From a virus, in IMG/VR virus record IMGVR_UViG_3300028025_002290, positions 1-47,942 of that record: a stretch of 47,942 nt of DNA; one strand, given 5' to 3'. This document shows, piece by piece, positions 11,012 to 35,202 of this stretch (positions are counted from its first letter, which is position 1; each line of letters starts with the position of its first letter). The notes below the pieces were generated by a model. It saw only the letters and a program-made list of their open reading frames with translations. It made no database searches and had not been told where the DNA came from. The translations under genes were made by a program, and so were the position numbers.

Positions 11012-13911
11012 CAACAATTCTGACTAAGAAAAAGGACACGGCAGGGGCTCCGGTCGCCGGCGACCTGACCAATTCTGCTGGAGGCGCTGAGCTTGCTGTC
11101 AACACGGCAACCAAGCGTCTTTATACCAAGGACAGTAGCGGCAACGTCGTTGAGATTGGTACCAATCCAAGCTCGCTTGATGTCCCCGTAGTCATCTCAG
11201 GCACGACCACTTCAGCAGCCTTACGTATCACACAGCTTGGTACTGGCAATGCTTTGTTGGTTGAGGATTCAAGTAATCCTGATTCAACACCGTTTGTGAT
11301 TGACGCAAGTGGTAATGTTTTAGTGGGCTTAACCACTGCCAGAAGTTCTTTTACTGGAGGAACTGTAACCCCAAACGTTCAAATAGAACAGGTCAATGGC
11401 GGAAGACTTTCTATTACTAGGGACTCGGCAACTGGTGGCGCAGATTTGTTCTTGGCAAGAACAAGGGGTGCGGCGCTTGGTGACGTAACAGTTGTTCAAA
11501 GCGGCGACAGAATGGGCGGCATTTATTTTGCAGGCGCTGATGGAACAAATCTTATAACAGGCGCATCTATAGATGGGTGGGTAGACGGCACTCCCGGTAC
11601 AAACGATATGCCCGGACGTTTGGTGTTCAGCACCACTGCTGACGGAGCAAGTACTCCTACTGAACGCATGCGTATCGACTCCAGCGGTAATGTGGGTATT
11701 GGCTCTACTAGTCCTGTCACCAAATTGGAAATTTCTGGCACTACAAACCAGACATGGAGCGTGACCGCTTCTATTTCTGGAACAACTTTAGATGTGACGA
11801 TAGTTTCAAGCGGAACAATTGCCGTTGGCGATTTAATATTTGGCTTGAACGTACAGCCCGGCACTCGCATCACTGCGCTTGGTACTGGCGCTGGCGGTAT
11901 AGGCACATATACGGTAAGCGTTTCACAAACTGTTGCGTCAGGCACTGTTGCGGGAACGACATCTTATGCAAGCAACATCATTCGTATCACCAACACTGAT
12001 ACATCTATTACTATCAACGACCAGCCAGAAGGTATTTTGCAGTTTTTTGGCTCGGATGCAACAACGCCTACTGCTGGCGTGTCTTCATATATTGCCTCAG
12101 TTGCAGAGTCAAGCAGTCCTGATAGCGCACTTGTGCTTGGTACTCGTAACAACACAGGCGGTGGGGTAGATGCTAACGAGCGGATGCGTATTAACTCCGC
12201 TGGTAATGTGGGTATTGGCACAAATGCTCCCACCAGAAGACTTTCTGTTTATGGAGAGAATGCAACTGCGCTTCTTGCGGACAGCGGAACAGACAACACA
12301 GTTGCAACTTTTAACAGTGCAAACGCACAAGCCAACTTAGACATTACAGGAAGTGGTGCTAGATTTAGGATTGGCGCATCGGGAAGCGGTGAGTTCTTCT
12401 TATCAACTGGGACAACAAGCACATACACAGAACGTATGCGTATCGACTCCTCTGGTAATGTGGGGATTGGTACGAGTTCACCTACGGCTGGGGTTAGCTT
12501 TAATACAAATACTCGTATTTTGGGGATTGCTGGTAGCGCAGGAGCATCAGCATTATCTTACGGAGCAATAGCACTTCAAAACAACAGAGCAACTGCAACA
12601 GTAAGCGATACGATTGGCTCATTAGGATTTTTGTCTGCAAACGACACTGCTCCGCTAAAAGCTGAAATTTCTTCGGTACTTAAAGGTTCTGGAGGTGTAA
12701 CTGGTGGCTTTGGCGCTGATTTAGTTTTTTCCACCCGTACGGACAATAGCGCATCTGTTACTGAACGTATGCGTATCGACTCCAGCGGCAACTTACTGTT
12801 AGGGACTACTGCTACAAGAACTTTTGCTGGGGTTACGGCTGCATTGCAAGTTGAAAGCACGACAGTAAATGGTGGCTCTCAATTTCTAACAGTCAACAAC
12901 GCAACAGCGGGGAACGGCCCTCTTTTTTCATTCAACCGATCTCGTGGAACTGCACTTGGCGCTGTTACTGCGGTGGCGCAAGGCGACACGTTGGGTCGTG
13001 TATTCTTTGCAGGTGCTGATGGAACTGCGTTGATTGGCGCTGCATCAATTTCTGCTCAAGTAGACGCTACTCCCGGCACAAATGATATGCCCGGACGCTT
13101 GATATTCAGCACTACTGCTGACGGAGCAAGCTCGCCCACAGAACGTATGCGTATCGACTCCAGCGGTAATGTGGGGATTGGTACGAGTTCGCCATTATCC
13201 TCAAGTAAGTTAACTGTATCTGGTGCTGTTGCATCAAATGGCGGTTTATCTGCTGATCTTGTGTCCGCTATTTCTTTAGATTTTTCAGGTGGTGAAGGTC
13301 GAATAATTGCACAAGGTTCATCTGGTAATTCCGCTGCTATCACATTTAGAAATGGAAATTCAGGTAGTGGTACTACAGAACGTATGCGTATCGACACCAG
13401 CGGTAACTTGCTGGTGGGGGGTACGAGCACTTATTCATCAATTCCTGGAGTGTACTCAACTCAAAATTATGTTTTAGGGCTTTCTACTGGATATTGGAAA
13501 CTAGCAATATCGTCAACAAACTTTTTCTTTGCTTATGGCGCAAGTGGCGCACCTAGTGATAGAGCAAGCATAAATTCATCTACTGGTGTTTATACGCCGC
13601 TGTCTGACAGAAACAAGAAAAAAGATTTTGAAGCTTCAAATATTGGTTTGTCGGCAGTAATGCAACTTAAACCAACATTGTTCAGAATGATTGAAGATGA
13701 TGAAACAAAAGAAAAAGAATTGGGATTCATTGCTCAAGAGGTTCAATCTGTCATTCCACAGGCTTATTTTGAGCAAAATGGTTCAGATGGAACAAAATTT
13801 ATTGGATTGCAAGACCGACCAATTATTGCTGTTTTGACAAAAGCAATCCAAGAACAACAAGCCCTTATCCAATCCCTTACAACCCGCATAACCGCACTGG
13901 AAACAAAATGA
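11008..13911 (+). CDS. Tail fibre/spike with C-terminal S74 intramolecular chaperone
   Basis: This 967-residue protein is a repeat-rich fibre. The motif [15 protein letters not shown] and variants start at nucleotides 11662, 12178, 12430, 12763, 13141 and 13378. Residues about 250-320 carry the same beta module as the 411-residue virion protein at 4111. The C-terminal 100 residues are a peptidase S74/endosialidase-type chaperone: [20 protein letters not shown] (candidate cleavage Ser866), [22 protein letters not shown], then a coiled-coil end ([20 protein letters not shown]). In this family the domain trimerises the fibre and then cuts itself off. The last 450 bases are more AT-rich than the repeats, suggesting domain exchange. 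Confidence 0.85.
11464..11703 (+). repeat. Fibre internal repeat, copy 1 (80 codons)
   Basis: This 240-base coding segment begins [20 protein letters not shown], contains [19 protein letters not shown] and ends at SGNVGIG. It aligns without gaps to 12943-13182 within the same gene. Protein identity is high, while many third codon positions differ, so the duplication is old or was built by recombination between fibre genes. Confidence 0.8.
12943..13182 (+). repeat. Fibre internal repeat, copy 2 (80 codons)
   Basis: Second copy of the 80-codon unit (begins [20 protein letters not shown], contains [19 protein letters not shown]). It has the same length as copy 1, so the unit is likely a complete structural repeat of the trimeric shaft rather than a random fragment. 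Confidence 0.8.
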
Positions 13912-17236: not shown

Positions 17237-18427
17237 ATGACCGTCTACACCAACATCTTCGGTGGAAGCAACATCTCTCCAGCAGAGATCAGCTACGCCG
17301 CAGTCAGCTTAACTGCTAACACCACCTACGACTGGGCCCTGGAGACTGCGCCATCTACTGATCTGATTGCCGGTATCATGGATGTCACGGCCACCTCAGG
17401 TCCTTGGAGCCTGACCTTGCCAAGCGCCCTGGAAGCTTCTACTGGCCAGACTATCCTGTTCAACAACGTTGGGTCAAATTCCTTCATCATCAGGAACAAC
17501 AGTGGCACGCAAATTGCAGCTCCCACTGCCGGCCAAGTCTGGCAGATTTACCTGACCGACAACACCACGGCCGGTGGTACTTGGCTTGCATTCCAGTATG
17601 GCGCGGCAGTATCAACGGCAAATGCCGCTTCTTTGGCAGGAACCGGCCTGATTGCAATTGGCTCACTCTTGTCCTTGGCCATGCCTGTCACGTTTTTTGG
17701 AAGCAACTTTACAGCTGACACAGACAGTAGAGCCAGGACGTATATCTGGAATGGAGGAGCTGGAACTCTTACCATGTCTACTGCCGGCACTCTCGGCAAT
17801 AACTGGTTCATTCAGCTTCGCAATGAAGGTACAGGTGCTCTTGTAGTTGATCCTCCTGGTGCTCAAACAATCAACGGATCTTCTACCCTGACCTTCCAAC
17901 CAGGCGACTCTGCCATCATCTTTACAGACGGCAACAACTTCTATACACTTGGCTACGGCCAATCTCCCGTCTTTGCGTTTGACTATACGTCAATCGGCGT
18001 GGCCGGAACAGGCAACTACACCTTGTCTGGCAGCGAGCTAAACCGCATCGCCTACAACTTCACCGGCGTCTTGACTGGCAACCGCAACATTATCGTGCCG
18101 CAGACCGTTCAGCAATACTGGGTGGCCAACAATACAACGGGCCCTTACACGCTAACTGTCAAGACCTCAATTGCAGCAGGATATACGGTTAACCAAGGCT
18201 CGCGGGCCATCTTGTATTCTGACGGTACTAACGTAGTAGCCGCAGATACTGGCGGCGTGGCTGTTCCTATCAGCGTCTCTGACGGTGGTACTGGAGCCAC
18301 TACGGCAGGAAACGCCTTGATTAACCTAGGTGGAACGGCAACGGGTATTGCCCTATTCACGGCCGCTTCTCAGGCAGCTGCCCAATCGGCCATCGGTCTT
18401 GATCCAATTCAAGGCGGAACATACTGA
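17237..18427 (+). CDS. Fibre-like virion protein
   Basis: The 396-residue product is beta-rich and poor in charged residues. It has Ser/Thr/Asn-rich strands such as ILFNNVGSNSFIIRNNSGTQ and NWFIQLRNEGTGALVVDPPG, repeated turns of the 'IIFTDGNNFYTLG' and 'ILYSDGTNVVAAD' type, and a C-terminal ISVSDGGTGATTAGNALINL motif typical of fibre proteins. It may be a tail or connector-associated fibre. The next gene's ATG overlaps its TGA by one base. It lies between adaptor and nozzle genes, so it is probably attached to the tail. Confidence 0.65.
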   Translation: MTVYTNIFGGSNISPAEISYAAVSLTANTTYDWALETAPSTDLIAGIMDVTATSGPWSLTLPSALEASTGQTILFNNVGSNSFIIRNNSGTQIAAPTAGQVWQIYLTDNTTAGGTWLAFQYGAAVSTANAASLAGTGLIAIGSLLSLAMPVTFFGSNFTADTDSRARTYIWNGGAGTLTMSTAGTLGNNWFIQLRNEGTGALVVDPPGAQTINGSSTLTFQPGDSAIIFTDGNNFYTLGYGQSPVFAFDYTSIGVAGTGNYTLSGSELNRIAYNFTGVLTGNRNIIVPQTVQQYWVANNTTGPYTLTVKTSIAAGYTVNQGSRAILYSDGTNVVAADTGGVAVPISVSDGGTGATTAGNALINLGGTATGIALFTAASQAAAQSAIGLDPIQGGTY

Positions 18428-20073
18428 TGGCAACAACCCCCGTCGTCCTGAAGTCTCTACCTGGCATCAAGCGCGATGGCACCAGGTATGAGGGTGACTA
18501 CCACGTCGACGGCCAATGGGTACGTTGGCAACGCGGACTTCCTCGTAAGGTTGGTGGCTACACAGTCATCAACCGTTACTTGACAGAGATCAGCCGAGGA
18601 GTAAAAACGTTCACAGAGAATGGCTTGACATATTTCCATTCCGGCAGTGCAAGCTTCGTTGAGCGCTTTACCGTTGACGCCAGCGGCAACACAAGCCTGA
18701 TCACGGACCGCACGCCAATCACTTATAACGACAACGACGATAACCTCTGGCAGTTTGACGTGATCTACGATACCCAGTCAATCCCGGCGGCCAACATGAT
18801 CGTGGCTCAAGTGGCACCAAATGCAGGCTGCCTTTGCAACACTGCCGGTGGCCAGTTGTTTATTGGCTCGATGACCGGAACGGACCCCTTGACCGAGGTC
18901 ACAACATTTCCTGCAGGCGTAAGCGTCACGGGCGGCGTAGTTTCCTTGCACCCCTACCTGATGTATTTTGGCAATGACGGTGTCGTTGGATGGTCAGTGG
19001 CAGGAGCCCCAACAGACTTGACTGGATCTGGTTCAGGCAATGCTCGCGTAGCTGGTCAAAAGATTGTCAAGGCTTTGGCACTTCGAGGCGGTCCAGGTAA
19101 CGCTCCGGCAGGTCTCTTTTGGAGTGCGGATGCAGTCATACGCGCTTCTTTTGTAGGAGGCGCTGAGATCTTCCAGTTTGACACGATCAGCCCTTATTCC
19201 AGCATCTTGTCTGCTGGCTCAGTCATCGAGTATGACGGCATCTACTACTGGTTAGGTACCGACCGCATGCTGATGTTTAACGGCGTGATTCGAGAGATCC
19301 CTAACAACCTGAACATCAACTACTTTTATGACGGTCTAAACAGAGCCGCTGCCCAACGCGTTTGGGCATATAAGGTTCCCAGATATGGCGAGATCTGGTG
19401 GTGTTATCCACGGGGCGATGCAACTGAATGCACCCATGCCATCATCTACAACGTTCGTGAGAACACTTGGTATGACACTGAGTTGCCCAATGGAGGCAGG
19501 ACAGCTGGCGAATGGTCACCTATTTACGCAGCCCCATTACTGTGCGGTCTAGAAACATCAACCTTTGTGCCAAACAACCGGGTCACAGAGGCCGGAGATC
19601 TTCGCATCACTCAAGACGAAGACCAACGGGTCACCGTTCCTGAGGAAGGCTATAAGGTCTGGCAGCACGAGCATGACGTCAACGAGATTGATGGCCAATT
19701 CATCACGGCTGTCCCTTCCTACTTTGAGACGGCTGACATGAGCATGCTGGTTCCTTCAGGCGGATCTAAGAACAAGTGGATCCGGGTTGAAGCCATTGAG
19801 CCCGACTTTGTGCAGTCTGAAAACATGACGGTTCAATTGACCGGACGCGCCAATGCCAAGGCCCTAGAAGTCCAAGGCCCTGAACGTACCATCTTTGCAG
19901 AGCCAACTACTCCTTACGAACAAGTGGTCTGGTTCAAAGAAGAACGCCGCGAACTGCGGTTTAAGTTTACCTCAAACACCATCAACGGCGACTACCAAAT
20001 GGGCCAAGTTATTGCCCACGTAGGCGAGGCTGACGGCTCTATGCTCGGCGGTGTCGTAGGGGGTTCCACGTGA
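18427..20073 (+). CDS. Tail nozzle/hub-like protein (T7 gp12 / P22 gp10 position)
   Basis: This 548-residue beta-rich protein starts PVVLKSLPGIKRDGTRYEGD and includes VRWQRGLPRKVGGY, a propeller-like series of strands (LTYFHSGSASFVERF, LMYFGNDGVVGWSV, IYYWLGTDRMLMFNGVIREI, EIWWCYPRG, AIIYNVRENTWYDTELP) and a C-terminal FKEERRELRFKFTSNTINGD domain. This order is like podoviral nozzle or gp10-type hub proteins that extend the tail tube. It follows the adaptor and precedes the internal virion genes, the same order as T7 gp12 before gp13-16. Fold assignment is by pattern only. Confidence 0.6.
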   Translation: MATTPVVLKSLPGIKRDGTRYEGDYHVDGQWVRWQRGLPRKVGGYTVINRYLTEISRGVKTFTENGLTYFHSGSASFVERFTVDASGNTSLITDRTPITYNDNDDNLWQFDVIYDTQSIPAANMIVAQVAPNAGCLCNTAGGQLFIGSMTGTDPLTEVTTFPAGVSVTGGVVSLHPYLMYFGNDGVVGWSVAGAPTDLTGSGSGNARVAGQKIVKALALRGGPGNAPAGLFWSADAVIRASFVGGAEIFQFDTISPYSSILSAGSVIEYDGIYYWLGTDRMLMFNGVIREIPNNLNINYFYDGLNRAAAQRVWAYKVPRYGEIWWCYPRGDATECTHAIIYNVRENTWYDTELPNGGRTAGEWSPIYAAPLLCGLETSTFVPNNRVTEAGDLRITQDEDQRVTVPEEGYKVWQHEHDVNEIDGQFITAVPSYFETADMSMLVPSGGSKNKWIRVEAIEPDFVQSENMTVQLTGRANAKALEVQGPERTIFAEPTTPYEQVVWFKEERRELRFKFTSNTINGDYQMGQVIAHVGEADGSMLGGVVGGST

Positions 20074-20297
20074 TCACGCAACCTGCTATAATGGGCTTGC
20101 GCGATTGGGCGGATTGCATCGTTATGGATCTGTCAACCTATGGAGCACTCTCGAGACTAGACGACGAGGAAAAGTGGAAAGAATGGGCCCTACAGTTCTG
20201 CGTAATTTCAGGACTTAGCCAGAAAAACGTTCCTGACCCATTTGACTTTATTGACTGGCGTGAGTGGGCACAACGTTTTGTTGGAGTGGTAGACTGA
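20070..20297 (+). CDS. Small Trp-rich acidic protein, unknown
   Basis: The 75-residue frame starts with GTG 20070, overlapping the nozzle stop (GTGA), and ends overlapping the next ATG. It has many tryptophans and the pattern WKEWALQF..., then VPDPFDFIDWREWAQRFVGV. Similar 'DWREWAxRxVG' short proteins occur next to tail genes in other phages. It is probably co-translated with the nozzle and ACP genes; no function recognised. Confidence 0.65.
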   Translation: MITQPAIMGLRDWADCIVMDLSTYGALSRLDDEEKWKEWALQFCVISGLSQKNVPDPFDFIDWREWAQRFVGVVD

Positions 20298-20590
20298 TGA
20301 CAGATCAAGAATTTATACAGCTACTGAACGACGTAGCTAAGAAAGCTAGGCCATTCAGCAATAGTGGGGTCAAAGAGATTGACTCCATGGAGATGATTCT
20401 AAAGGATACCGGGCTTGACAGCCTTGACATGCTGATGTGCATAGTCTACCTCTGCGAGATCTACGACGTCGAGGACGAGAAGAGCAAAGAGATGCTTGGC
20501 GAGACACCGCAAGATCTTTTAAACTTCCTGAATGAATGGGGGCGTAGAAAGCCGGCTAACTACGAAGAAGCCAAGGGTTGGCTCGTATGA
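20297..20590 (+). CDS. Acyl carrier protein
   Basis: ATG 20297 overlaps the preceding TGA; an upstream in-frame start at 20264 would invade that gene. The 97-residue acidic protein has the ACP signature DTGLDSLDMLMCIVYLCEIY, with Ser42 in D-S-L as the expected 4'-phosphopantetheine site. It begins the recognition helix (LDMLMCIVYLCEIYDVEDE), and a final helix follows (ETPQDLLNFLNEWGRR). ACPs carry acyl chains as thioesters and would need a host phosphopantetheinyl transferase. A short C-terminal extension (KPANYEEAKGWLV) exceeds the usual 77-80 residues. Its stop overlaps the ketosynthase ATG, so the two are co-translated. It could serve lipid, polyketide-like or protein-acylation chemistry; the substrate is unknown. 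Confidence 0.85.
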   Translation: MTDQEFIQLLNDVAKKARPFSNSGVKEIDSMEMILKDTGLDSLDMLMCIVYLCEIYDVEDEKSKEMLGETPQDLLNFLNEWGRRKPANYEEAKGWLV

Positions 20591-21708
20591 GAATCTTCCT
20601 AACTGAAAGCAGAATAGCCTGCACGGAAGATACGACGCTCATTTCAGACCATACCTTCCCCCAAAAAGTACATCTGTTTCCTGAGACTTATAACCGGGTC
20701 AAGACCGGATTGATCAATCCAGCCCACAAAGTAGCTGAAAAGGTCTTAGATCCTGACCTGTTAAACCTGCTCAGAGATACCCAACCTGGCAAGACGGCCT
20801 TCATATTGGCCTCAGGAAACAGCAACTTTGCCAACGAAGGTGCCAAGCTTAGTCGTGAGACTGACTGGACCTACAACTACAAGATCCTGCCTCTGTCATT
20901 GACCCAGATCTATGCTGGACGTGTTGCCGCGCAGTGCGGAGAGATAGATCACACAGCCACTGATGCCACGGCCTGTACCTCTAGCCTCAAGGCCCTGATG
21001 GACGTGCAGACCCTGATCAAGTTTTACGGCTTTGACCGGGTCATTGTCCTGGCAGTTGAAGACCAGGTCAACAACATGACTCTTCAGTTCTTTGGAGAAG
21101 CTAAGGCAACCCTGACCGAAAGCATGGCCGAGACTCACCAGGTGGTCCCCAGTGCATTCGATTCAACCAACTTTGGGTTCTACATAGGCCAGGGCGCCGC
21201 GTTTGCCGTATTTGAGTCAGAAGAAGCCTTGACGCGTTCAGGGCTTACGCCAAGGGCTGAGCTTTTGTCGTCTTGGACAGCCACGGAAGTGGCAACAAAT
21301 GCCATCGGGCAACGTGAAGATGGACAGGGATTTAGACGAGCAATCGAGGGGGCCCTTGAACTTTGTCAAATTTCCCCAGAACAAATTAAAATCGTGAAAA
21401 CTCATGGCACTGGGACTAAGTCCAACAACGCGGCCGAAAAAGCTGCGCTTGAAAAGTGCCTGAGCGGTTTTGTAGCAACATCGTACAAGCAGCGAATCGG
21501 CCATACGATGGGAGCGAGCGGACTGTTAGAGACCCTCTTGCTGTTCAATGATTTAGAAAAGGGAACTGTCCCTGGGATCTTGAATCGAAGTGAGGAGGAT
21601 CATGTGTTCCTCTCAGAAGAGATTAAAGCTCCTGAAGGGATAGTGTTAAGCTTGAGTGCTGGCATGGGCAACGTGTTCAGTGCTGCGCTTTTCAACATGA
21701 GGATCTAA
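20587..21708 (+). CDS. Beta-ketoacyl-ACP synthase (KAS I/II-like)
   Basis: ATG 20587 overlaps the ACP stop (ATGA); the TTG at 20578 is less likely. The 373-residue protein carries the full Cys-His-His set of condensing enzymes: Cys130 in TDATACTSSLKALMD, His273 in KTHGTGTKSN, and His306 in KQRIGHTMGASG with the conserved Lys301. KAS I/II enzymes join malonyl-ACP to an acyl chain with loss of CO2; His-His rather than His-Asn separates it from KAS III. The N-terminus is shorter than FabF (about 410 residues). The C-terminal gating loop reads SAGMGNVFSAAL instead of the usual GFGGTNAAL type, so chain selection may differ. No reductase or dehydratase lies nearby; later steps, if any, would use host enzymes. 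Confidence 0.9.
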   Translation: MRIFLTESRIACTEDTTLISDHTFPQKVHLFPETYNRVKTGLINPAHKVAEKVLDPDLLNLLRDTQPGKTAFILASGNSNFANEGAKLSRETDWTYNYKILPLSLTQIYAGRVAAQCGEIDHTATDATACTSSLKALMDVQTLIKFYGFDRVIVLAVEDQVNNMTLQFFGEAKATLTESMAETHQVVPSAFDSTNFGFYIGQGAAFAVFESEEALTRSGLTPRAELLSSWTATEVATNAIGQREDGQGFRRAIEGALELCQISPEQIKIVKTHGTGTKSNNAAEKAALEKCLSGFVATSYKQRIGHTMGASGLLETLLLFNDLEKGTVPGILNRSEEDHVFLSEEIKAPEGIVLSLSAGMGNVFSAALFNMRI

Positions 21709-21710
21709 TT

Positions 21711-22166
21711 ATGCCACTCGTAGACAGCCGACAACAAATGCTAGAACTTGGCGAGCTACTTAAGGTAGCGGCTGAGAACACACAATCAGAATATCCGATG
21801 GAATTCGTGTATGCTGCCTTCGTCAAAGAAGTGCAGATGCCTGATAGCAAGTTCTATCGATATGGCAACACGGTCTACGTCGTGCATGGATCGCCAAAGA
21901 ATCCTAGCAAGGGCACATTTAGAGCACTAAATGCAGACACAGCTCCTAATTTTATGGCTTCTGGATTTGCCTTTGTAGTTGACGCCTACAAAAACGGCTT
22001 TGACACCTTAGTCACCCAGTTCAGAGATCAAAGTTTATTGAACATCTTTAGAAACGTAGCTAAAAATCCTCCTAACCCTGGTATGGGCTACAACGTGCAA
22101 ATGCTTGCCAACGGCGAATACCAAGTTGCTTTGCAACTCGGACAGAAAAGACAAGGAGCACAATAA
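21711..22166 (+). CDS. GNAT-like protein in the T7 gp13 position
   Basis: The 151-residue protein reads as a small alpha/beta fold: an N-terminal helix (RQQMLELGELLKVAAEN), GNTVYVVHGSPKNPSKGTFR, RALNADTAPNFMASGFAFVV (long helix), then a beta-helix-beta end (FDTLVTQFRDQSLLNIFRNV, MGYNVQMLANGEYQVALQLG). This order of elements resembles the C-terminal half of GNAT acyltransferases. The gene sits where T7-like phages encode gp13, a GNAT-like virion protein. No acetyl-CoA loop (Q/RxxGxG/A) is obvious, so it may be non-catalytic or use another donor. Its TAA overlaps the next ATG. Alternative: simply a conserved virion assembly protein. Confidence 0.5.
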   Translation: MPLVDSRQQMLELGELLKVAAENTQSEYPMEFVYAAFVKEVQMPDSKFYRYGNTVYVVHGSPKNPSKGTFRALNADTAPNFMASGFAFVVDAYKNGFDTLVTQFRDQSLLNIFRNVAKNPPNPGMGYNVQMLANGEYQVALQLGQKRQGAQ

Positions 22167-24160
22167 TGGGTGCAGTAGCAAGTTTTGTTGAAGACGTTGT
22201 CGGCGGCGTTGTTGAAGCCGTTGGTGACGTTGTTGAAAGCGTTGGGGACGTAGTCTCTGACGTTGGCGAGGCGATTGACACGTATGTCATTCAACCTATC
22301 ATGGAAGATCCGCTTACGGCGATTGCGACGGTGGCTGCCGCAGCTTATCTAGGGCCGGCAGCCGCTTCTTATTTTGGAACGTCGGCCGCTGTTGGCACAG
22401 GTATAGCGGCAGGTCTAGGCAATACAGCAGCAGGTCTTGTTCAAGGTGAAGACTTTGACGAAGCCATCAAAGGTGGCGCAATGGCTGGCTTGACGGCCGG
22501 TGTCACTCAAGCGGCCTTTGGTCCTAGTGCAGCCGGTGAAGGTCCCATGGGCCCACCTGCTCCTGCAGGCTTAGGTGAAAACTTCGTTGGTCCTCCAATG
22601 GAGAGTGGTTCTTATTTCACAGAGCCCTTGGCTACGTCAACTCCTGTTATTCCTCAGTCGACTATGTCACCGACTGAACTTCCTCCTCTAGAATCAGCTG
22701 CGCCGGCACCAGCGCCTAGTCCACTGCAAACAGCGCAGCCTGCTCCAGTGGCAATGCCTGATGTTGCACCTCCTATATCGCCCTTGTCAGTAGACTATTC
22801 GGTGCCCAAGATTGACTTGACGTCAGGTCTCAAGCCAAATACTATGGGGCTTGACGGCGGCGCGTTTACGCCTGCAAATTCTTTCGACATCTACGGCGAA
22901 CCTAGCTACGACTTGTTTGGTGCCCCTGGCGGAACATCAGGACCTGGAATGCAGATTCCAGATTCACCTTACCTAAGCAGAATGGGTGGGGGTCAAGGAC
23001 TGACGGCTAATGTTTCGGGCATGGATCAGTTTACCTACGGACCTGGTTCAGGTACTGATTACATGGGTTCTCCATGGGAAGGCACTGCTGACACATGGGG
23101 AAGAAACCCAGATGGTAGTTTTAGGGCTGGCGATCAGTATGGAACTGCAGAACCAGGAGGTACTTTAAGCTCAAAAGGCTTTACTCCTGATCAACCCACT
23201 ATCCCCTACGGCAGCGAAAACATCGGTGAGATGAGTACTTGGGACAAGTTTACGAGCGGTGACCTTATGGGAACCGCCAAAGACCTTGGCACAGATGCTT
23301 GGGACTATGCTAAGAATAATAAATTGACGACTGCGGCGGGCCTCCTGGCTGCAGACCAGTTATTAAACCCTACTAAGCCTCCAGAGCCGCCAAGACCATC
23401 CGGCGGCAACACTCGTGACAAGTCCTTTGACAAGGGTCTTGACTTGTACGCCTACCTGCGAGACCGCCAACAATACCAAGGCGACTTGACAAGGTATGGT
23501 CAAGCTGGTCAAGGTGGTGAGCAAAACTTCTTTGCAAACGAACGCTTTGTGCCAATTCCTATTGGCGCCAAGATGGGCGGCTTGATCCAGATGAAGCACT
23601 TTGCGCAAGGCGGTCAGATGCAAGGAGCTGGTCAGATGGATCCTCGTCGCGCCCAGATGATGGCGGCAATGGCTCAACAGCGCCCTGCTGGCATGGGAGG
23701 TCCTCAGACTGGACGACCAATGCCTCCTCAAGGCGGACGTCCTCAGATGATGCCCCCTCAGGGTGGTCCTCAAGGTGGTCTCCAACAAGGCATGCAGCCA
23801 CAACAAGGACAACGTCCTCCAATGCCCCAGCGTCCTCGTGACCCTAAGATGGCCTATTACCAATATGGCAATCCTCCACCACAAGCGAAAGCTATGGGGG
23901 GTCTCAGCCAGGTGCACAGCATGAAGATTGGCGGCGGTGCAGACGGTCGTTCAGACGATGTCAACGCTGTCTTGTCAGATGGTGAATACGTGATGGATGC
24001 CGAGACCGTGGCAATGCTTGGAAATGGATCGTCTAAGGCAGGGGCCGCCCAGCTTGACCAGATGAGGGCTAACTTGCGCAAGCAAAAAGGACAAGCCCTG
24101 TCACGCGGCAAGATCAGCCCAAATGCTAAGAGCCCACTGTCATACTTGAAGGGAGCCTAA
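22166..24160 (+). CDS. Internal virion/ejection-type protein, 664 residues
   Basis: The N-terminus (VASFVEDVVGGVVEAVGDVV, to about residue 40) is an amphipathic helix with VGDVVE repeats. A hydrophobic Ala/Gly region follows (about 48-100). The middle is Pro/Gly/Ser-rich, and residues about 490-575 are Gln/Pro/Met/Gly-rich (RPMPPQGGRPQMMPPQGG). The C-terminus contains HFAQGGQMQ, MKIGGGADGRSDDV, then VLSDGEYVMDAETVAMLGNG, a segment common at the ends of phage tail or internal proteins. Position after the nozzle and gp13-like genes matches T7 gp14. It probably inserts in the host membrane during DNA ejection. AAGGAGCACAATA precedes the ATG. Confidence 0.6.
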   Translation: MGAVASFVEDVVGGVVEAVGDVVESVGDVVSDVGEAIDTYVIQPIMEDPLTAIATVAAAAYLGPAAASYFGTSAAVGTGIAAGLGNTAAGLVQGEDFDEAIKGGAMAGLTAGVTQAAFGPSAAGEGPMGPPAPAGLGENFVGPPMESGSYFTEPLATSTPVIPQSTMSPTELPPLESAAPAPAPSPLQTAQPAPVAMPDVAPPISPLSVDYSVPKIDLTSGLKPNTMGLDGGAFTPANSFDIYGEPSYDLFGAPGGTSGPGMQIPDSPYLSRMGGGQGLTANVSGMDQFTYGPGSGTDYMGSPWEGTADTWGRNPDGSFRAGDQYGTAEPGGTLSSKGFTPDQPTIPYGSENIGEMSTWDKFTSGDLMGTAKDLGTDAWDYAKNNKLTTAAGLLAADQLLNPTKPPEPPRPSGGNTRDKSFDKGLDLYAYLRDRQQYQGDLTRYGQAGQGGEQNFFANERFVPIPIGAKMGGLIQMKHFAQGGQMQGAGQMDPRRAQMMAAMAQQRPAGMGGPQTGRPMPPQGGRPQMMPPQGGPQGGLQQGMQPQQGQRPPMPQRPRDPKMAYYQYGNPPPQAKAMGGLSQVHSMKIGGGADGRSDDVNAVLSDGEYVMDAETVAMLGNGSSKAGAAQLDQMRANLRKQKGQALSRGKISPNAKSPLSYLKGA

Positions 24161-24161
24161 T

Positions 24162-25577
24162 ATGGCGTTCACAGACTTCCTGTTTCAAGGCGCTCCTCCG
24201 CCGTCGGTCACGACCTATGGCGAGACCACGACAAGCGTTCCTGCCTGGTACAGCGACTATACGCAGGGCTTAATCAGCAGGGCAAACGCCATCGCTGCCG
24301 AGCCTTATCAGGCGTATGGACAACAGAGAATTGCAAACCTGGATCCTGCACAAGAAGCTGCTTACAACAAGGCCTACGGCCTTGAGAGCCAGTATTCTCC
24401 TCTTATGGGTCAGGCGCAGCAAAACATTGCGGGATCATCTGGTAGTGCGGCAAGTGCTGCACAGCCGTACATCAACACGGCCCTGAGCTACAACCCGTAC
24501 ACGACTGCTCAGCCAATGCTTGGTGAGGCAGGAAACCTCTTGCGCCAGCAAGTTGGCGACACTAGCGCCCTGGCCCAACCGTACTTTCAACAGGCTGGTC
24601 AGCTGACTAACCAAGGAACTCAATCGGCTGCTGGTCTGGCCACTCCCTATTTCCAGCAAGCTTCTAACTTGTCGCAGCAAGGGGCTCAAACAGGTCTTGG
24701 CAATATCCAAGACTACATGAACCCATACACCGATCAGGTGGTGAATCGTATAGGTGAACTTGGAGCCCGCAACTTAAAAGAAAACCTGCTGCCCAACATA
24801 CAAGACCGCGCCATTCAGGCAGGTACGTTTGGCGGCAGCCGCAGTGGTGAAGCTATTGGACGCGCTTTGCGTGATACCCAAGAATCTACCTTAGCCCAGC
24901 AATCTGCCGCCCTTCAACAAGGCTACGGACAAGCTGGCCAGCTGCTGCAAGCTGATCGTGCCCGTCAATTACAAGCTGCCCAACAGCAACAAGGCATTGG
25001 CCAAGCAACGGCAGGCCTTACTGCGGCAGACTATCAGCGCATGTTGGCAGGTGCCCAACAACAGGCCGCTATGGGGCAAGCAGCCGCTGGTCTTGAGGGT
25101 GCAGACCTTGCAAGATACGGTCAGGCAGGTGCCCAGATCGGAGCCCTTGGTCAGATGCAAGGACAACTGGCTGGTCAAGCAGGTACCCAAAACTTGCAGG
25201 CTGCTCAGCAAATCGGAGCCTTGTCTAATCAGGACTTTGCTCGCATGCTGCAGTCTGGCCAGGCGCTTGGTGCCCTTGGTCAACAGACCCAGCAGATGGG
25301 CATGCAAAACATTGCAGGTCTGGAAGCTGCTGGCGCAACTCAACAGCAACAAGCCCAGCGTTCTTTGGATCAGGCCTACCAAGACTTCTTGAACCAACGC
25401 GACTATGGACGAGGCAATATCGCGTTCTTGAACGCAGCTGTTCGTGGTTTGCAGGTTCCAACTTCAACTACCAGCGAGTCAAGCGGTCCGGCAAGTGTGT
25501 ATCAGCCTTCGCCTTTGGCCCAGTTTGGCCAGACTCTTGCAACGGGCTACGGCCTCAAGAAACTCATCGGCCCATAA
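24162..25577 (+). CDS. Gln/Ala-rich internal virion protein
   Basis: The 471-residue chain is about one quarter Gln and Ala and is largely helical. Repeating heptads run through residues 60-180 and 250-420 (YFQQAGQLTNQGTQS, YFQQASNLSQQGAQT). A conserved-looking centre reads IQDYMNPYTDQVVNRIGELG, followed by NLLPNIQDRAIQAGTFGGSR. The N-terminus (FQGAPPPSVTTYGETTTSVP) is disordered. The C-terminus ends LATGYGLKKLIGP. This 'MNPYT..V..RIGELG' segment is familiar from internal or injection proteins of podovirus-like phages. It lies in the ejection gene block, so a role in the DNA-delivery channel is likely but unproven. Confidence 0.6.
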   Translation: MAFTDFLFQGAPPPSVTTYGETTTSVPAWYSDYTQGLISRANAIAAEPYQAYGQQRIANLDPAQEAAYNKAYGLESQYSPLMGQAQQNIAGSSGSAASAAQPYINTALSYNPYTTAQPMLGEAGNLLRQQVGDTSALAQPYFQQAGQLTNQGTQSAAGLATPYFQQASNLSQQGAQTGLGNIQDYMNPYTDQVVNRIGELGARNLKENLLPNIQDRAIQAGTFGGSRSGEAIGRALRDTQESTLAQQSAALQQGYGQAGQLLQADRARQLQAAQQQQGIGQATAGLTAADYQRMLAGAQQQAAMGQAAAGLEGADLARYGQAGAQIGALGQMQGQLAGQAGTQNLQAAQQIGALSNQDFARMLQSGQALGALGQQTQQMGMQNIAGLEAAGATQQQQAQRSLDQAYQDFLNQRDYGRGNIAFLNAAVRGLQVPTSTTSESSGPASVYQPSPLAQFGQTLATGYGLKKLIGP

Positions 25578-25586
25578 GGACACAAC

Positions 25587-28500
25587 ATGGCATTCGAAGA
25601 CGACGCAGACAACGACCTGGACACAGCAGACGAACAAGGCAGCAATAGCAGCCAAGTCGTCTCTTCAACGGGCTACACTTCGTCACGAGGTGCAGCTAAT
25701 CCTTACACCGGGCAACTTCAAACCTTGCTCTCTAAATATCTGGAAAACAGTGAAAAATCGGCGACTGATAAACAGGCCTTGCTGGATAAGGCGCGTGAGC
25801 GGATCATGGCTAGGTCCGCTGGTCCGGATTCGGCAGAAGTGGCGTTTCGTCTTGCGGCTGCTCTCGGCAAGCCTACTAGGACTGGGGGCTTTGGTGAAAC
25901 GCTTGGTAATGTTGCAGAGGCGACTGCGGAAAGCTTGGCCTCTCAGCGGAAGTCAAAGCAAGAACTAGAAGACTTAAGCCTCAAATATGAGTTGGCTTCT
26001 TCTGATGTCCAGGGCGAAAAGTACAAGACCCAAGTGGGTGCCTTGTCTGCCTTGGCTAAGGCGTCTCCAAAAGACCGGCTGACCGAGATTGAGAAGATGC
26101 AAGAGATCATTGACGACCCTAAGGCCAATCAAAAGGCCAAGGACAATGCTCAAGCTCGTATCAGTTACTTGACCACCAGGCCGTCTTCTGCTCCCAAGCA
26201 GACAGAGATTGAGCGCCTGACAGACAAGATCAATGATCCTACTACCCCAGCAACCACAAAGGCAATCCTCAAGCAGCGCCTCAAAAAACTGACCTACATT
26301 GCCCCTGAAGCTAAAGCTGAACGAGATGCTGACAAGCCTCAATCAACTCCAGGCAAGATTGCCAAGGATGAAGGCCTGACTCCAGGGACACCTGAATATC
26401 AGGCGCGCGTCAAACAACTGACGGGCGAAGGCAAGGGCATGACTTTGAGTGCCAAAGAACAAACGGAATTGTTTGAGGCTGAAGACCAAGTCAACGCTGG
26501 CAAGACAGTCATCTTGAACTTGTCAAAAGCCAAAGAGTTAAACAGCAAGGCCTATTCGGGTTTTGGTGCAGGGGCTCGTCGCTCAATTGCCCGCAACATC
26601 CCTGGCGTCGGTGGTTCTGAGGGAGTTACCGCAACCACCGAACTCGAGAACCTGGTATTGACCAACGGCCTTGATCAGTTGAAAGCAACTTTTGGTGGCA
26701 ACCCAACCGAAGGCGAACGGGCCATCTTGTTACAGATTCAAGGCTCACTCAGCATGGGAGTTGAGGAACGTGACAAACTCTGGGATCGTGCTATGCAGAT
26801 GGCGGCCAGACGCGTCAGGATAGGCCAGGACAAGATGAAAAAGCTCCAATCAGGGAGCTATAGCCGTGTTCAGCCTGATGAAGCAAAAGCGGCTGGCGGA
26901 CCTGTTGGCCAATACGCCAAAGGCGGACCAGTCCACATGCAAGAAGGCGGCGAGATGTCCTTTGCAAACATGGGGCGCGCCGTAGGCCAGGGCTTAGGTC
27001 TTGGTTTCGGTGACGAGGCAATTGCAAAAGTTCGTGCCAAGATGGAGGGACGCCCTTATGCGGACGTTGTGGCCGAAGAACGAGCTGCCTACCAGAAGTT
27101 TCAAGACAAGCATCCCTTTGTTGCATTAGGGACAGAGCTTGTTTCTGGCGCAATTCCAACCATCGGTATGGCTATGGTGCCAGGCGCAGGAACCCCAGGA
27201 GCCGTGCTTGGCGGCAGCCGTATGGCAATGGCTGCCCAGCGTTTTTCATCTGCCCTTCCCAAGTTTATGACTGGCACAACGGCCAAGGCGGCAGGTGCAG
27301 GAGCAACGACCGGAGCAGTTGCAGGAGCCGGTTCCGCGACCGAGGGCAACCGCACAAGCGGAGCCGTCTCAGGCGGAACAACAGGCGCAGTCCTTGGCCC
27401 GGCAGTAGCTAAGACAATCCAGCTTGGCGGCAAAGCCGTTGGAGCCGTCAAGAACGCAGTCAAGCCTTCTCCCGGTGCCGTTGAGCAGCGGGCTACCAAC
27501 AAGGTCCTTGAGGCCATGGCTCGTGACGAGATGGATCCTGCAGCACTTCAAGCAAAGATGCTAGCAGACCAAAAGCTTGGCGTCAAGTCTACCATCATGG
27601 ACGCAAGTCCATCCTTGTCAAGTCTTGGCGAGGCCGTGGTAACACGTGCAGGACCAGGACGCAAGATCTTAGGCACTGGCCTAGAGGAGCGCCTGGAAGG
27701 TGGCCGCGAGATTGCTGGCTCTAGAGCCCTTAAGGACATCGGCAAGGGCGTTGACTACACTGCCCAAGAAGACACCTTGATGGGCAAGCTTCGTGCCAAT
27801 GCAAATACTCTCTACGATCAGGCCTATGCCCACGGTTCTGTGGACGATACCCGTATCTTGAAGGTCTTGGAGGACGATACCTTTAAGAAGGCGTTCAAGG
27901 AAGCTCAAGCAATTGCCGGCAAAGAAGCACGCGCAGCAGAACTTCGCGGAGAAGATGCTAGCCGCTTCAAGCTGAACGACATCTATGGTCAAGACAAAGA
28001 CGGCAACCTGACTACGGTCGGCAAGATCCCTGACGTCAGGACCCTGGACTACATCAAGCGAGGTATTGATGCCTTGATTGACAAAGGCTATCGCGGTGAA
28101 GGTATGTCTAAGGCAGAAGCCAACGCGCTTAAGGACCTCAAGAAGGCTTACGTCCAAGTCATTGACGAGAACGTGCCAGAGTACGCCGTGGCACGCGCAA
28201 AGTATGCAGGCGATATGGAAGTATTGGATGCGCTCAGACTTGGCCGTACGGACTATCTGTCGCCCAAGATGCTGCCAGCCGAAGCCAAGAAGCTGGTTGA
28301 TGGTATGTCAGACGGCGAACGCGATGCCTTGCGTGCCGGCGTAGCCCAGTCGCTCTTGACCAAGGTCATGGATGCCCCTCAACAAGTCAATGCAGCACAA
28401 CGGATCATTGGGGCCCCAGCAACCCGCAAGCGTCTTGAGGCCTTGTTTAAAGACCCCAACGAGTATAAGATATTTGAGGCTGCCATGCAGCGTGAGTCCG

Positions 28501-28961
28501 AGTTGTTCCGTAATGCCCAGAACACTATTCGCAATAGCCGAACAGCCAATAGACAAGAAGCCCTTGCAGACTTAAAGGCAAGCTCAGGCATCTTTGACAT
28601 TGCAGGAGAGGCTGTTGACATGGCCGTAGGATCCCCTGGTTCCGTGATTGGTCGCGTCTTGAAATACTTGCAGGCCAGCACGACTCTTGACGAGAAAAGC
28701 GCCGGCCAGATAGCTACGATGCTCAAGTCAGGCAGCCAACAAGAAGTTGATGATGTCTTAAAACGCCTTGAATCCAGCAGCGCCAAGTTTATCGAGGGCC
28801 GTGAAAAGTCAGCCAGTCGCCTCAAGACCATCTCAGGAACCGTCGGTGCCGCTGCGCCAGTCACCCCAAGGCCAGCTCCTCCAGTTGAGGCTGCGCCTGA
28901 AGGCGAGACCGATGAAGAGAAAATCAAAAGGTTGATGGACAAATACAACATACAGGAATAA
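25587..28961 (+). CDS. Large internal virion protein, 1124 residues (gp15 position)
   Basis: The protein seems to consist of two joined parts. Residues 1-435 are charged and helical (TEIEKMQEIIDDPKANQKAK; GFGAGARRSIARNIPGVGGS). At about 443 there is a linker YAKGGPVHMQEGGEM. The second part opens FANMGRAVGQGLGLGFGDEA, has a long Ala/Gly hydrophobic region (about 510-620: GTELVSGAIPTIGMAMVPGA...) that could insert in membranes, and then a helical domain (about 640-1090). The tail is Pro-rich and ends MDKYNIQE. It follows two other ejection-type genes and precedes the 1645-residue protein, the order of T7 gp15-gp16. ATAAGGACACAAC precedes the ATG. Confidence 0.6.
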   Translation: MAFEDDADNDLDTADEQGSNSSQVVSSTGYTSSRGAANPYTGQLQTLLSKYLENSEKSATDKQALLDKARERIMARSAGPDSAEVAFRLAAALGKPTRTGGFGETLGNVAEATAESLASQRKSKQELEDLSLKYELASSDVQGEKYKTQVGALSALAKASPKDRLTEIEKMQEIIDDPKANQKAKDNAQARISYLTTRPSSAPKQTEIERLTDKINDPTTPATTKAILKQRLKKLTYIAPEAKAERDADKPQSTPGKIAKDEGLTPGTPEYQARVKQLTGEGKGMTLSAKEQTELFEAEDQVNAGKTVILNLSKAKELNSKAYSGFGAGARRSIARNIPGVGGSEGVTATTELENLVLTNGLDQLKATFGGNPTEGERAILLQIQGSLSMGVEERDKLWDRAMQMAARRVRIGQDKMKKLQSGSYSRVQPDEAKAAGGPVGQYAKGGPVHMQEGGEMSFANMGRAVGQGLGLGFGDEAIAKVRAKMEGRPYADVVAEERAAYQKFQDKHPFVALGTELVSGAIPTIGMAMVPGAGTPGAVLGGSRMAMAAQRFSSALPKFMTGTTAKAAGAGATTGAVAGAGSATEGNRTSGAVSGGTTGAVLGPAVAKTIQLGGKAVGAVKNAVKPSPGAVEQRATNKVLEAMARDEMDPAALQAKMLADQKLGVKSTIMDASPSLSSLGEAVVTRAGPGRKILGTGLEERLEGGREIAGSRALKDIGKGVDYTAQEDTLMGKLRANANTLYDQAYAHGSVDDTRILKVLEDDTFKKAFKEAQAIAGKEARAAELRGEDASRFKLNDIYGQDKDGNLTTVGKIPDVRTLDYIKRGIDALIDKGYRGEGMSKAEANALKDLKKAYVQVIDENVPEYAVARAKYAGDMEVLDALRLGRTDYLSPKMLPAEAKKLVDGMSDGERDALRAGVAQSLLTKVMDAPQQVNAAQRIIGAPATRKRLEALFKDPNEYKIFEAAMQRESELFRNAQNTIRNSRTANRQEALADLKASSGIFDIAGEAVDMAVGSPGSVIGRVLKYLQASTTLDEKSAGQIATMLKSGSQQEVDDVLKRLESSSAKFIEGREKSASRLKTISGTVGAAAPVTPRPAPPVEAAPEGETDEEKIKRLMDKYNIQE

Positions 28962-28964
28962 GCC

Positions 28965-31900
28965 ATGCCCTACGACGAACAAGGTAACTTCTACGGGTCT
29001 AATGAAGACCTTGGCGACTTAAAGGCAAAGTACATAAAACCTGATCCGGTGTCCCAGATACCTGGTCAGGTTGTCTCGCCTAAGCAAGAAGAATCAAAGA
29101 CTCTCCGCGAGCAGGCTGTTTCTGCTTTAATGAAGTACAACCCGCTGATGATGCAAAAATCATTGCAGGATGTGCCAAGGACCTTGGTCGGCGGAGCTTT
29201 ACTTCCTGTCGTTGCTCCTGTTAGCGCTGGCGTCCAATACTTGAATGCCTTGCCTGGTAACCTGCTGCGTCGTTCACGCGGCGAGGAAGAAGTCAAGACT
29301 CCAACAGCAGAAGACCTGATGCGCAAGTATGGGGAAGCAATTGCTCCAAAGACTGAGTTAGGCCGTGATTTTCAAGAGGGTCTTGTCAAGACCATGGACA
29401 CCCTCAAGATACCTGCAGCTTGGCCAATGGTTCCCAATGCCCCTAAGCGCCCAATGCTGACTCCAACAGACGTTCGCGTAGGTGCAGGTCAGATCAAGCA
29501 ACTGGCCAAGGAACTCAAAGAGACTCCACAAGACTTCCAGGCTGCTCAATCTGGCCTCAAACGTCAGAACTTATACGGTGAAGACACCCTTGGTGTCAAG
29601 GCACAGGCGGCCGCAGATTCTTTAGGTGATACCCTTGAACGTCGTCGGGCATCAGATCGTTCTCTAATTCCAGGGGTTCCTGGTGTCCTTACTCCTGAGA
29701 CTAGCATGTACGCTGTACGTCCAAAGGGTTCCAGGCTTGTGCAGCCAAAGGTGCCGGCATCTGCTAAGAACTTCACTCCTTCCTTTAGTGAAATTCCTGA
29801 TTTTGTGGACGACGTCTACGGTAATGTGGAGGCTGGCGAGATACCTCCAACCATGATCATGAGCGAGTACGGTCCAAGGTTCATGAATACCGAAGCAACC
29901 CGAGACTTCAAGGAAGGCGTCTTGGCTCTTGATAGGAAAAAAGCCATGGAGATGTTTCCAGACGCTCCAAGTGAACCCCTGGCTTTGCGGGCCTATGAGA
30001 TCTTGTACAGCGACAGGAACGCAAGGGCAGCAAAAAGCTTAGAGACCATTGAAGAATTCCTGGCTATGCCAGAAAATCAGCGCTTTATTGAGGAAGGTAT
30101 CCCAACCCCAAGCCAGTTTGTTGAGCGCTTTAAAGAAGCAGAGCGTGTTGTCAAAGGACCCTTGGTCAACTACCTCAGCAAAAACGTTGGAGCTGAAGGC
30201 GATCCTACAGTCAAGCTTGCTCGTCAAGGTATTACCTATGAATCTCCTGAGCGCATCAACGAATTGGCGGGGTTTGTCACGCCAACTCCGGGAGGAAGAC
30301 TGGCCGAAACCCGCGTAAAAGCGGGTTTTCCTGCTATGGGTAGTTTCCACGAGGAACGATTGGCCAAAACTGGCGAACTTGACAAACTCAATGAAGAGAT
30401 TGCTGCTTTAGAAGAAGTCCGAACTCCGTTGTTTAACAGGGCTCACGAGGAAGGTATTGATCCGGCGTCAATCCCAGAATACGCGGAGACCACCAATCCA
30501 CTTCGCCAAAAGCTTCGTCAGAGAGAACAGTTGCAAGGTGAACTTGAAAACATCAAGTTGGCCACCGCTGTGGAAAACATAAGCGACTACGCCGTTACAC
30601 CAAAGAGTAAGCTGCAGATGGAAATGGACATCCCATACCAGGAGCGCCAGTTCTTCCCATCTGTTACCAAGGGCGGTGAGAATGAGACCTTCTACACAGT
30701 TGGTAACAGGTCGTTGCTGAACGACATAGGCTATCAGAAGCTTGGAAAAGATTTAGTTGAAGACATCTTGACCGGCAAGGCCGGAGATACCTCTAAGCTT
30801 ACCATTGAGGGCTATATCAGAGACAAAGGCTTGTCTCGTATTGAGGCCGAAAAGGCAGCAAAGGTTCAACAGCAACAGTACCGTCAAAATCTTGAGGGCG
30901 TCTTGCTTAAGCGTCTTCAAGAAGATCCCAACGTCAAGACATTTGGAAATGCTTCAATCATCACGCTCAACAAGGATACTCCTAAAGACGTAGCCTTGCG
31001 TGACGTGAGTACAGACACGGCAATCTTAGATCACTGCGTTGGACAAGGTGGCTCGGCGCCAGAGGGCAGACGCAACCTGTTGACAAACAACCAACAATAC
31101 TACGAACCAATTGTTGACCCAATCACTGGGGAACGCAATAAAAATGCCAAGAGCGATGCCTACAGCAGCTATGTAGACCAGTTAGCCAGTGGCAACGAGT
31201 TGATTAGCGTTCGTGATTCCAGGACTGGATTGCCAGCTGCTACCATCCAACTTTTAACCACTGGAGACCCTGGCAACTTTAGAGTTGGCTATGCTTCAGG
31301 CGCTAAAAACGGCGCAATTGAGCCTCAGTACGTGGACGCCATCAAGCAGTACTTGAACAGCCGGGCTGATTCAATTACAAGCGCTGGAGAAAACTTGTCT
31401 GACAACGCAGGCATCTTTGACTTGGCCAATTCAAGAGGTAGAGACCAGGCCATACGGGCCGCAAACATTCCTGGATCTGGGCGCGGTAAAAAAGCAGATG
31501 AGCTTCAAAGAACGCTGGAGTTTGCAATTCAAAACTCTCCTGACATACGGAGGTTTGTGACTTCTGACGACGTCAAGAAGATCTTTGAAAGCACCTCTAA
31601 CGAAGTGGCCGTTGTCAATCAGCCGTCTGCTGCTCGTCCTACCGGAGTGATGAGGCTACAAGACTATGAAGGCTTTGTTGACGAATTTAATAGCGCCCTT
31701 GAAGCAGCAGTTGAATCCGCAATGGAGAACTCTAACCTTGAGAATCCAAACAGGGTTGAAGGAGCCATGGGCCGCGCAGTGGCAAATATATTTGATAACC
31801 ACTTAAATGACCCAGTAGAGTTTATTCAGGAGCCTGTTGCCCGTTTGCGTCGTGTTGAACGTGACCTTCAAAACGTCATTCAAAACTCTTATGCCCAAAG

Positions 31901-33902: not shown

Positions 33903-33952
33903 GGCTTCCGGCTCCTCTATCAAAATCCCTATAGATGATATTTTTACCCATA

Positions 33953-35198: not shown

Positions 35199-35202
35199 AC
35201 CC

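Follow-up and report, generated by a model that had tools for sequence, protein, structure and literature searches.

The window analysed here is the whole of a single virus record, IMGVR_UViG_3300028025_002290, with a length of 47,942 bases. In its virion operon, genes for an acyl carrier protein (ACP), a beta-ketoacyl-ACP synthase (KAS) and a protein with a predicted GNAT fold lie between a nozzle-type gene and a block of ejection-type genes (Table 1). The SU10_adaptor gene is a marker of a short-tailed virion module, and the homologue of the nozzle-type protein in phage MW202545 is named as a phage stabilization protein. As had been claimed in the original prediction, the ACP and the condensing enzyme are intact inside the virion operon; their open reading frames overlap in an ATGA, and Ser42 of the ACP within the motif DSLD as well as Cys130, His273, Lys301, and His306 of the KAS are all found at the places given for them. 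The further claim that all junctions are overlaps of 1-4 bases holds for ACP and KAS but not for the next junction, where the KAS gene ends at 21708 and the GNAT gene starts at 21711, with 2 bases in between and no overlap. The description of the pair as a two-gene system has to be revised as well, since this third gene, with its GNAT fold, is associated with it. The protein encoded directly behind the GNAT gene starts with MGAVAS, contains no cysteine, and shows a weak tape-measure match (phrog_6090, 0.0051).

Table 1. Features of the ACP-KAS-GNAT region and its surroundings in the window
Feature	Position	Strand	Basis
Tail adaptor, SU10_adaptor PF24175	16582..17235	+	Pfam 5.7e-28; phrog_2941 2.3e-28
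Nozzle/stabilisation-type virion protein, 5' of the cassette	18427..20073	+	phrog_3287 virion structural protein 1.2e-28
Small conserved protein, 75 aa, between nozzle gene and ACP gene	20070..20297	+	homologue in 63 of 89 loci
Acyl carrier protein, 97 aa	20297..20590	+	predicted 4'-phosphopantetheine site Ser42 (DSLD), codon 20420-20422
Beta-ketoacyl-ACP synthase, 373 aa	20587..21708	+	PF00109 and PF02801; AF2; VIA
KAS catalytic codons	C130 20974-20976; H273 21403-21405; K301 21487-21489; H306 21502-21504	+	
GNAT-fold protein, 151 aa, proposed acyl-ACP-dependent acyltransferase	21711..22166	+	AF2, Foldseek, VIA
664-aa protein heading the ejection block, proposed acyl target	22166..24160	+	directly 3' of GNAT gene
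DNA ejection-type protein	24162..25577	+	phrog_4287 DNA ejection protein 1.7e-7
Large ejection-block protein, by position	25587..28961	+	in 37 of 89 loci, several stopping earlier; no Pfam match
1645-aa protein, end of ejection block by position	28965..33902	+	in 16 of 89 loci, many stopping earlier; no Pfam match

Families and Predicted Folds of the Three Cassette Proteins

The Pfam check that had been suggested for the pair gave a divided result, whereby the KAS passed both PF00109 (2.1e-8, 34.5 bits) and PF02801 (9.9e-18, 64.7 bits; cut-off 20.8), whereas the window ACP by itself matched no family, PF00550 included. A KAS profile run against the PDB retrieved FabF (2rjt) at 1.7e-28. The AF2 model of the KAS (pLDDT 89.9, pTM 0.92) was aligned by VIA to FabF from S. 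pneumoniae (1oxh) over 354 of 373 residues with a Z of 41.8 and an rmsd of 2.8, and each of the 122 distinct phage KAS proteins that exceed 340 aa has the Cys/His/Lys/His tetrad. Structural modelling, which had been named earlier as a possible refutation, predicts a thiolase-like fold along the full length of the protein with a conserved tetrad. The phage enzyme also deviates from the bacterial one. Against the FabF equivalog TIGR03150 it scores 116.5 bits, far under the curated cut-off of 493.75. The catalytic Cys is preceded by 128-129 residues in three phage KAS compared to 150-172 residues in five bacterial ones, and the phage proteins are about 20-45 residues shorter 5' of this Cys in the examples compared. 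In FabF, the Phe in the GFGG-type loop is the gating residue; the corresponding KAS loop is AGMGN, where all 25 phage sequences have Met; among 29 bacterial sequences, 22 have Phe. The short N-terminal part, the AGMGN gate loop, and the score far below the FabF equivalog together suggest that the KAS substrate is probably not that of the housekeeping FabF.

Judged by its sequence, the window ACP is divergent. Its match to TIGR00517 is weak (0.0092), and PF00550 was matched at E<=1 by 11 of the 37 ACP family members, with 0.0017 as the best value. The profile built from these 37 members gave a best PDB match of 3.3e-4, and the best 60 of 86 PDB matches are all ACPs or ACP-type subunits of larger complexes. 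The mean column identity amounts to 45% for the ACP (37 rows) versus 69% for the KAS (25 rows), and the serine motif DS[LM]D is kept in 130 of 130 distinct ACPs.

Sequence searches gave no GNAT match for the third gene, neither when 32 family members were run against Pfam and PHROGs nor when the window protein was run against NCBIfam, and a PDB profile search yielded two matches, neither of them meaningful. The AF2 model of the protein (pLDDT 92.7) has a GNAT fold. In Foldseek, acetyltransferases are the best matches (4avb, 1.7e-5), and the rows include TofI (3p2h, 5.5e-4) as well as Rv1347c (1yk3, 2.7e-4), both of which we take to be users of acyl-ACP. VIA aligned the model to RimI (2cnm) over 119 residues with a Z of 11.7 and an rmsd of 2.7; a Z of at least 8 was obtained for 472 of 998 chains, and the top rows are CoA-dependent acetyltransferases. 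Among viral structures, the nearest library entry is A0A6J7WZS3 (9.2e-19), an uncharacterised protein from a phage. Invariant residues of the family are N74, D76, and N80 at the beta4-alpha3 turn and F104 at the end of beta5, with the nearly invariant D106 just past F104; in GNAT enzymes both places presumably border the pantetheine groove. The classical CoA pyrophosphate loop of GNAT enzymes reads Q/RxxGxG/A. Judged by eye, the beta4-alpha3 turn reads ALNADTxxN in most rows, and the classical motif is absent from it. Since this turn is unlike the classical loop, the GNAT-fold protein may be a dead scaffold, comparable to Gp13 of T7, for which Pfam gives a probable scaffold role.

Spread, Selection, and Natural Variants

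The family is widespread in environmental viral contigs. A search of viral contigs with the window KAS returned 38 loci, and in an alignment-based search 523 of 551 matching stretches encode a relative, whereby the lowest identity among the best 80 of the 523 relatives is 56%. An ACP gene is located 5' of the KAS gene in 88 of 89 loci (the exception, L038, is a cut locus), and a GNAT gene is located 3' of it in 81 of 89. The eight loci without it are L032, L033, L034, L037, L040, L060, L073, and L083; seven of these stop at the KAS gene or within 90 bases, and in L060 the ACP-KAS pair lies apart from the ejection genes, which occupy the other strand. The order ACP-KAS-GNAT-ejection gene is therefore conserved; a search of viral databases for an ACP-KAS-virion order had been suggested earlier as a check. 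Because this order recurs in many contigs, a chimeric assembly of the pair, which the original prediction had named as a possible refutation, was rejected.

Between the window and four relatives, dN/dS ranged from 0.04 to 0.12 over ACP, KAS, and GNAT, with some pairs saturated, including one ACP pair; in two other close pairs, values of up to 0.31 rest on few changes. These values indicate that all three genes are under purifying selection, and we hold it to be highly likely that an intact, selected ACP and KAS are real. In a quick KAS tree, a long-stemmed branch with an SH-aLRT of 91 separates the 25 phage rows from 56 bacterial ORFs, which came from a search seeded by the phage KAS and several of which have long branches. 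With the phage rows on one side of the tree behind a long stem, a recent capture of a bacterial fabF was rejected.

PHROGs holds families for both proteins, each without a function (phrog_35856, 1.5e-42; phrog_28189, 3.7e-5). A tblastn search with the KAS in a published phage collection, which may omit records close to the window, led to 18 records, 17 of them below 29% identity. MW202545 is the only record of the collection with a close KAS (55%) and the only one with an ACP match (32%). The 17 other matches, in unannotated records, look like bacterial KAS and were not accepted as phage relatives; Bordetella phage BPP-1 was also discarded as a relative, as the annotation of NC_005357 contains no such pair. 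A Balneolaceae match (L090, 53%) has the same cassette with a fibre-type gene on its 5' side, and we read it as phage DNA inside a MAG.

Natural variants were counted by distinct GNAT proteins because loci L133-L207 and L209-L288 overlap earlier contigs. Among the 145 distinct GNAT proteins, both ACP and KAS are encoded nearby for 111, the ACP alone for 8, and neither for 20; the remaining 6 belong to cut loci. Seven of the eight ACP-only loci are close to the window lineage (L146, L147, L149, L153, L154, L155, L175); between ACP and GNAT they retain a short relic of the KAS around His273, recognised by profile or alignment, and six aligned relics share one common right-hand junction. The distant L176 has ACP followed by GNAT, and a search of its contig (34 kb) revealed no KAS. 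The ACPs of the KAS-deleted lineage retain the serine, with a dN/dS of 0.06-0.15 in 13 of 15 pairs from six loci, the other two pairs being saturated. The KAS is thus dispensable in some lineages, and the view that it is always needed did not survive, since one lineage lost it and kept the ACP. Purifying selection on the ACP after the deletion suggests that it has a use other than with the phage KAS.

Thirteen of the contigs with neither gene near the GNAT gene were searched as a whole. In three of them (L198, L210, L213) the two genes occur together at another place, within a non-virion block; in the other 10 (12.7-36.8 kb, possibly incomplete) neither ACP nor KAS was found. The statement that the pair is made late together with the virion proteins is therefore not general. 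In G002 and G004 the pair lies 3' of a gene that by eye is helicase-like, in a block without virion genes that is presumably early, and the GNAT gene still adjoins the ejection protein. The ACP search places the ACP at 898-1188 in G003 and at 12374-12664 in G004, overlapped by a longer frame. Mapped on a quick GNAT tree with 61 representatives, the three states require 6 changes.

Apparent Host Dependence, Candidate Acceptor, and Possible Functions

In 19 virus records, which are possibly incomplete, no match was found to the phosphopantetheinyl transferase family PF01648, the FabG-type reductase family PF13561, the malonyl transferase family PF00698, or the FabA/Z dehydratase family PF07977 (0 of 19 in each case). 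The single positive of the PF01648 search, which comprised 20 records, was the bacterial MAG of L090, and the control genomes contained these fatty-acid families in 9-13 of 14 cases. The earlier statement that reductase and dehydratase genes are missing, with host enzymes borrowed or a single condensation product made, is consistent with these counts. With none of the four families found in the virus records, the phage seems to rely on host AcpS, on host FabD and, if the chain is reduced, on host reductases.

For the proteins encoded downstream of the cassette, 48 non-redundant sequences (<50% identity) out of 206 ORFs were compared. A small residue (S, G, A, or T) occupies position 2 in 47 of 48; position 3 is A in 35, and position 4 is V in 39. 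Nine of the 206 ORFs, three of them among the 48, had been trimmed to an internal Met by an ad hoc pattern; L048 was trimmed wrongly, and with its original start, too, residue 2 is a small one. L047 is a misfit to the N-terminal pattern, and L180 and L075 fit it in part. As a lead, the pattern would suit N-terminal acylation after removal of the Met, and it can instead reflect an amphipathic helix. A thioester acylation is argued against by the absence of cysteine from 44 of the 48 proteins.

We infer from these data a phage acyl-ACP cassette, in which a host-armed ACP would be used by the KAS for chain extension and by the GNAT-fold protein for transfer, likeliest onto the adjacent ejection protein; this is the reading that we tentatively prefer, at somewhat less than an even chance. 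Ser42 of the phage carrier would receive 4'-phosphopantetheine from host AcpS, and malonate would be loaded by host FabD, whereupon the phage KAS would condense an acyl chain from host acyl-ACP with the malonyl group on the phage ACP to a 3-oxoacyl chain. This chain would stay on the phage carrier, with reduction, if any, by host enzymes. Background for the next step is provided by GNAT enzymes that depend on acyl-ACP, namely LuxI/TofI, MbtK, and HlyC. Similarly, the GNAT-fold protein would take the acyl group from the phage ACP and pass it to an amine; for a functional link between these two proteins we see the chances as evenly balanced. The acceptor would most plausibly be the neighbouring ejection protein, modified either at a lysine or at its N-terminus with the small residues, and the acylated ejection apparatus would gain an acyl anchor for the host envelope. 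Taken as a separate claim, the acylation of an ejection protein is doubtful, and the full statement that this phage group encodes a protein lipidation system of its own that depends on acyl-ACP, whereby the GNAT-fold protein acylates the ejection protein and the channel is anchored in the envelope, is rather unlikely to be right as it stands. Sequence, predicted folds, and conservation show the intact and selected ACP and KAS, the GNAT fold, and the linkage of the genes, while the chemistry, the transfer from ACP to GNAT-fold protein, and the acceptor are proposals. Among the observations that weigh against the cassette reading are the 20 GNAT loci without the pair nearby, the dispensable KAS of some lineages, the turn that is unlike the CoA loop, the CoA-dependent enzymes in the top VIA rows, and that the GNAT-fold protein is known by its predicted fold alone.

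The same 20 loci, together with the pair in a non-virion block away from the virion genes, would suit an auxiliary lipid metabolism, in which ACP and KAS redirect or boost the fatty-acid elongation of the host, with a change in membrane lipids in the course of infection. The GNAT-fold protein would then be an unrelated virion scaffold, as is probable for the T7 protein of the same operon position (PF11090 in Pfam), and its adjacency to the pair would reflect operon history only. We nevertheless consider this explanation unlikely, as the ACP of the KAS-deleted lineage is still under purifying selection beside the GNAT gene, a GNAT gene follows in 81 of 89 KAS loci with seven of the other eight ending at or near the KAS gene, and boosting a host pathway would not obviously need a private, divergent ACP. 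It might also be that the GNAT-fold protein completes a small acyl product, such as an N-acyl amino acid or a homoserine-lactone-like compound, which acts as a signal or a membrane-active molecule. 3-Oxoacyl-ACP, the product of a KAS, is the kind of substrate that LuxI enzymes use, and GNAT folds include the AHL synthase TofI, which is among the Foldseek rows. The probability of such a product appears low, however, because Pfam, the PDB profile search, and NCBIfam revealed no resemblance in sequence to AHL synthases, and because the GNAT gene is still found in the virion module where ACP and KAS have moved away, a pattern more in keeping with a role linked to the virion.

A location in the virion operon, and a gating loop with Met in all 25 phage sequences in place of the Phe of 22 of 29 bacterial ones, could be expected if ACP, KAS, and GNAT-fold protein were virion or assembly parts kept for binding and not for catalysis; the mitochondrial ACP in complex I is a precedent for such a structural use. 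With the tetrad present in 122 of 122 and the serine motif in 130 of 130 proteins, and with a pair that can lie outside the virion operon, we give this structural or regulatory role a slim probability. The full conservation of the catalytic residues also speaks against a decoy or counter-defence function, in which phage ACP and KAS would titrate or block acyl-ACP enzymes of the host, even though the higher divergence of the ACP compared to the KAS (45% versus 69% identity) is what adaptation to changing partners might produce. PADLOC gave no match, on which ground a defence system was rejected, and the decoy function is left with a very faint probability. If the acyl-ACP cassette reading is true, a virus would be altering the proteins that deliver its DNA by means of fatty-acid machinery, and the way in which short-tailed phages build an ejection channel across the membrane could be tested directly by mass spectrometry of a single purified phage. 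Even on the weaker readings, the separate phage lineage of ACP and ketosynthase is a source of compact enzymes whose gate loop is altered.

Comparison With Known Systems

Gene 13 of T7 (PF11090), which codes for the probable scaffold Gp13, occupies the corresponding place in its operon, with gene 12 on one side and the genes for internal virion proteins on the other. However, the T7 region 24500-37000 has no annotated ACP or KAS gene, PF11090 was matched by none of the 32 GNAT-family members, and the GNAT profile aligned to the single T7 Gp13 sequence in hhalign at an E of 0.41. Acyltransferases of the LuxI/TofI, MbtK (Rv1347c), and HlyC type, which use acyl-ACP, share the GNAT fold and, in the phage, an ACP gene is likewise close by; the phage protein differs from them in that no sequence similarity was found and in that its top VIA rows are CoA-dependent enzymes of the RimI type. 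With bacterial FabF and its ACP, the phage pair has in common the fold over the whole length, the Cys-His-Lys-His residues, the DSL serine, and the order ACP then KAS, whereas it stands apart by its score far below the FabF equivalog, the AGMGN gate, and the shorter part before the Cys. Unlike in the bacterial type II system, FabG, FabD, FabZ, and the phosphopantetheinyl transferase were not found in the 19 virus records.

The literature comparison is based on the parts consulted of PMC8224337, PMC5463345, PMC10152775, and PMC5977210. ORF32 of Erythrobacter phage R6L and ORF117 of Vibrio phage R16F are described there as single phage ACP genes, whereby the function of the R6L ACP is called unclear in the R6L paper; in these parts no adjacent KAS is named for either, and both lie outside the ejection cassette seen here. 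Three Rhodobacteraceae prophages contain an ACP together with a KAS II, but in the bacterial fab operon order fabG-acpP-fabF according to the part consulted (PMC8224337), in contrast to which the phage KAS described here is a separate lineage located in a virion module. A limited search of open-licence PMC papers, as far as their text was covered, did not find a description of such a phage system. MW202545, a metagenomic phage from Manatee Spring, has the same cassette in the same order; there, ACP and GNAT-fold protein are annotated as hypothetical, and KAS and ACP are 55% and 32% identical to those of the window, respectively. The parts of the cassette thus belong to known families, and what sets the cassette apart is their combination, their place in a virion operon, and their separate lineage.

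Cysteines, a KAS remnant and relocated pairs

Among 48 non-redundant proteins encoded directly after the GNAT-fold gene (less than 50% mutual identity), which form the set of the 664-residue protein at the head of the ejection block, 44 are free of cysteine, whereas the homologue from the metagenomic phage MW202545 carries 36 cysteines in 639 residues. In L149, which belongs to the lineage that has lost most of the ketosynthase (KAS) but keeps the ACP and GNAT genes, reading by eye indicates that the deletion left an in-frame frame of 44 codons upstream of the GNAT gene, made up of a start codon, a segment around His273 and a stop codon. In the contigs G002 and G004 (loci L290 and L292), the relocated ACP-KAS pair adjoins a helicase-like gene within a non-virion block. 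A gene similar in size to that of the 75-residue protein of the window adjoins virion genes at L195, L198 and in G004; ACP and KAS are absent from there.

Possible host hint

In the genome-collection scan, the cassette together with a closely related KAS (53%) occurred at a single locus, on a contig of a Balneolaceae MAG (L090). It may hint at the host, or else it might be a binning artefact.

Other genes of the window

The Tad2-like protein is a candidate anti-Thoeris protein. The gene beside thymidylate synthase shows P-loop kinase-type matches and one UDG match, all of them weak, and the two genes could possibly serve nucleotide or base modification.

Coordinates and matches of the features discussed
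Feature	Locus	Position	Match or remark
GroES-like chaperonin	window	540-959	Cpn10, 4e-12; near capsid gene
967-aa protein	window	11008-13911	endosialidase chaperone domain at C-terminal end (PF13884, 1e-10)
75-aa protein	window	20070-20297	conserved; between nozzle gene and ACP
Gene adjoining thymidylate synthase	window	36486-37478	
Thymidylate synthase	window	37471-38265	thymidylate synthase, 2.8e-23
Tad2-like protein	window	42763-43062	PF11195, 1.8e-22
Cysteine-rich homologue	L001 (MW202545)	21542-23461	
44-codon frame	L149	4679-4813	

The annotation of MW202545 lists a chaperonin 10 kd subunit at a position like that of the GroES-like gene.
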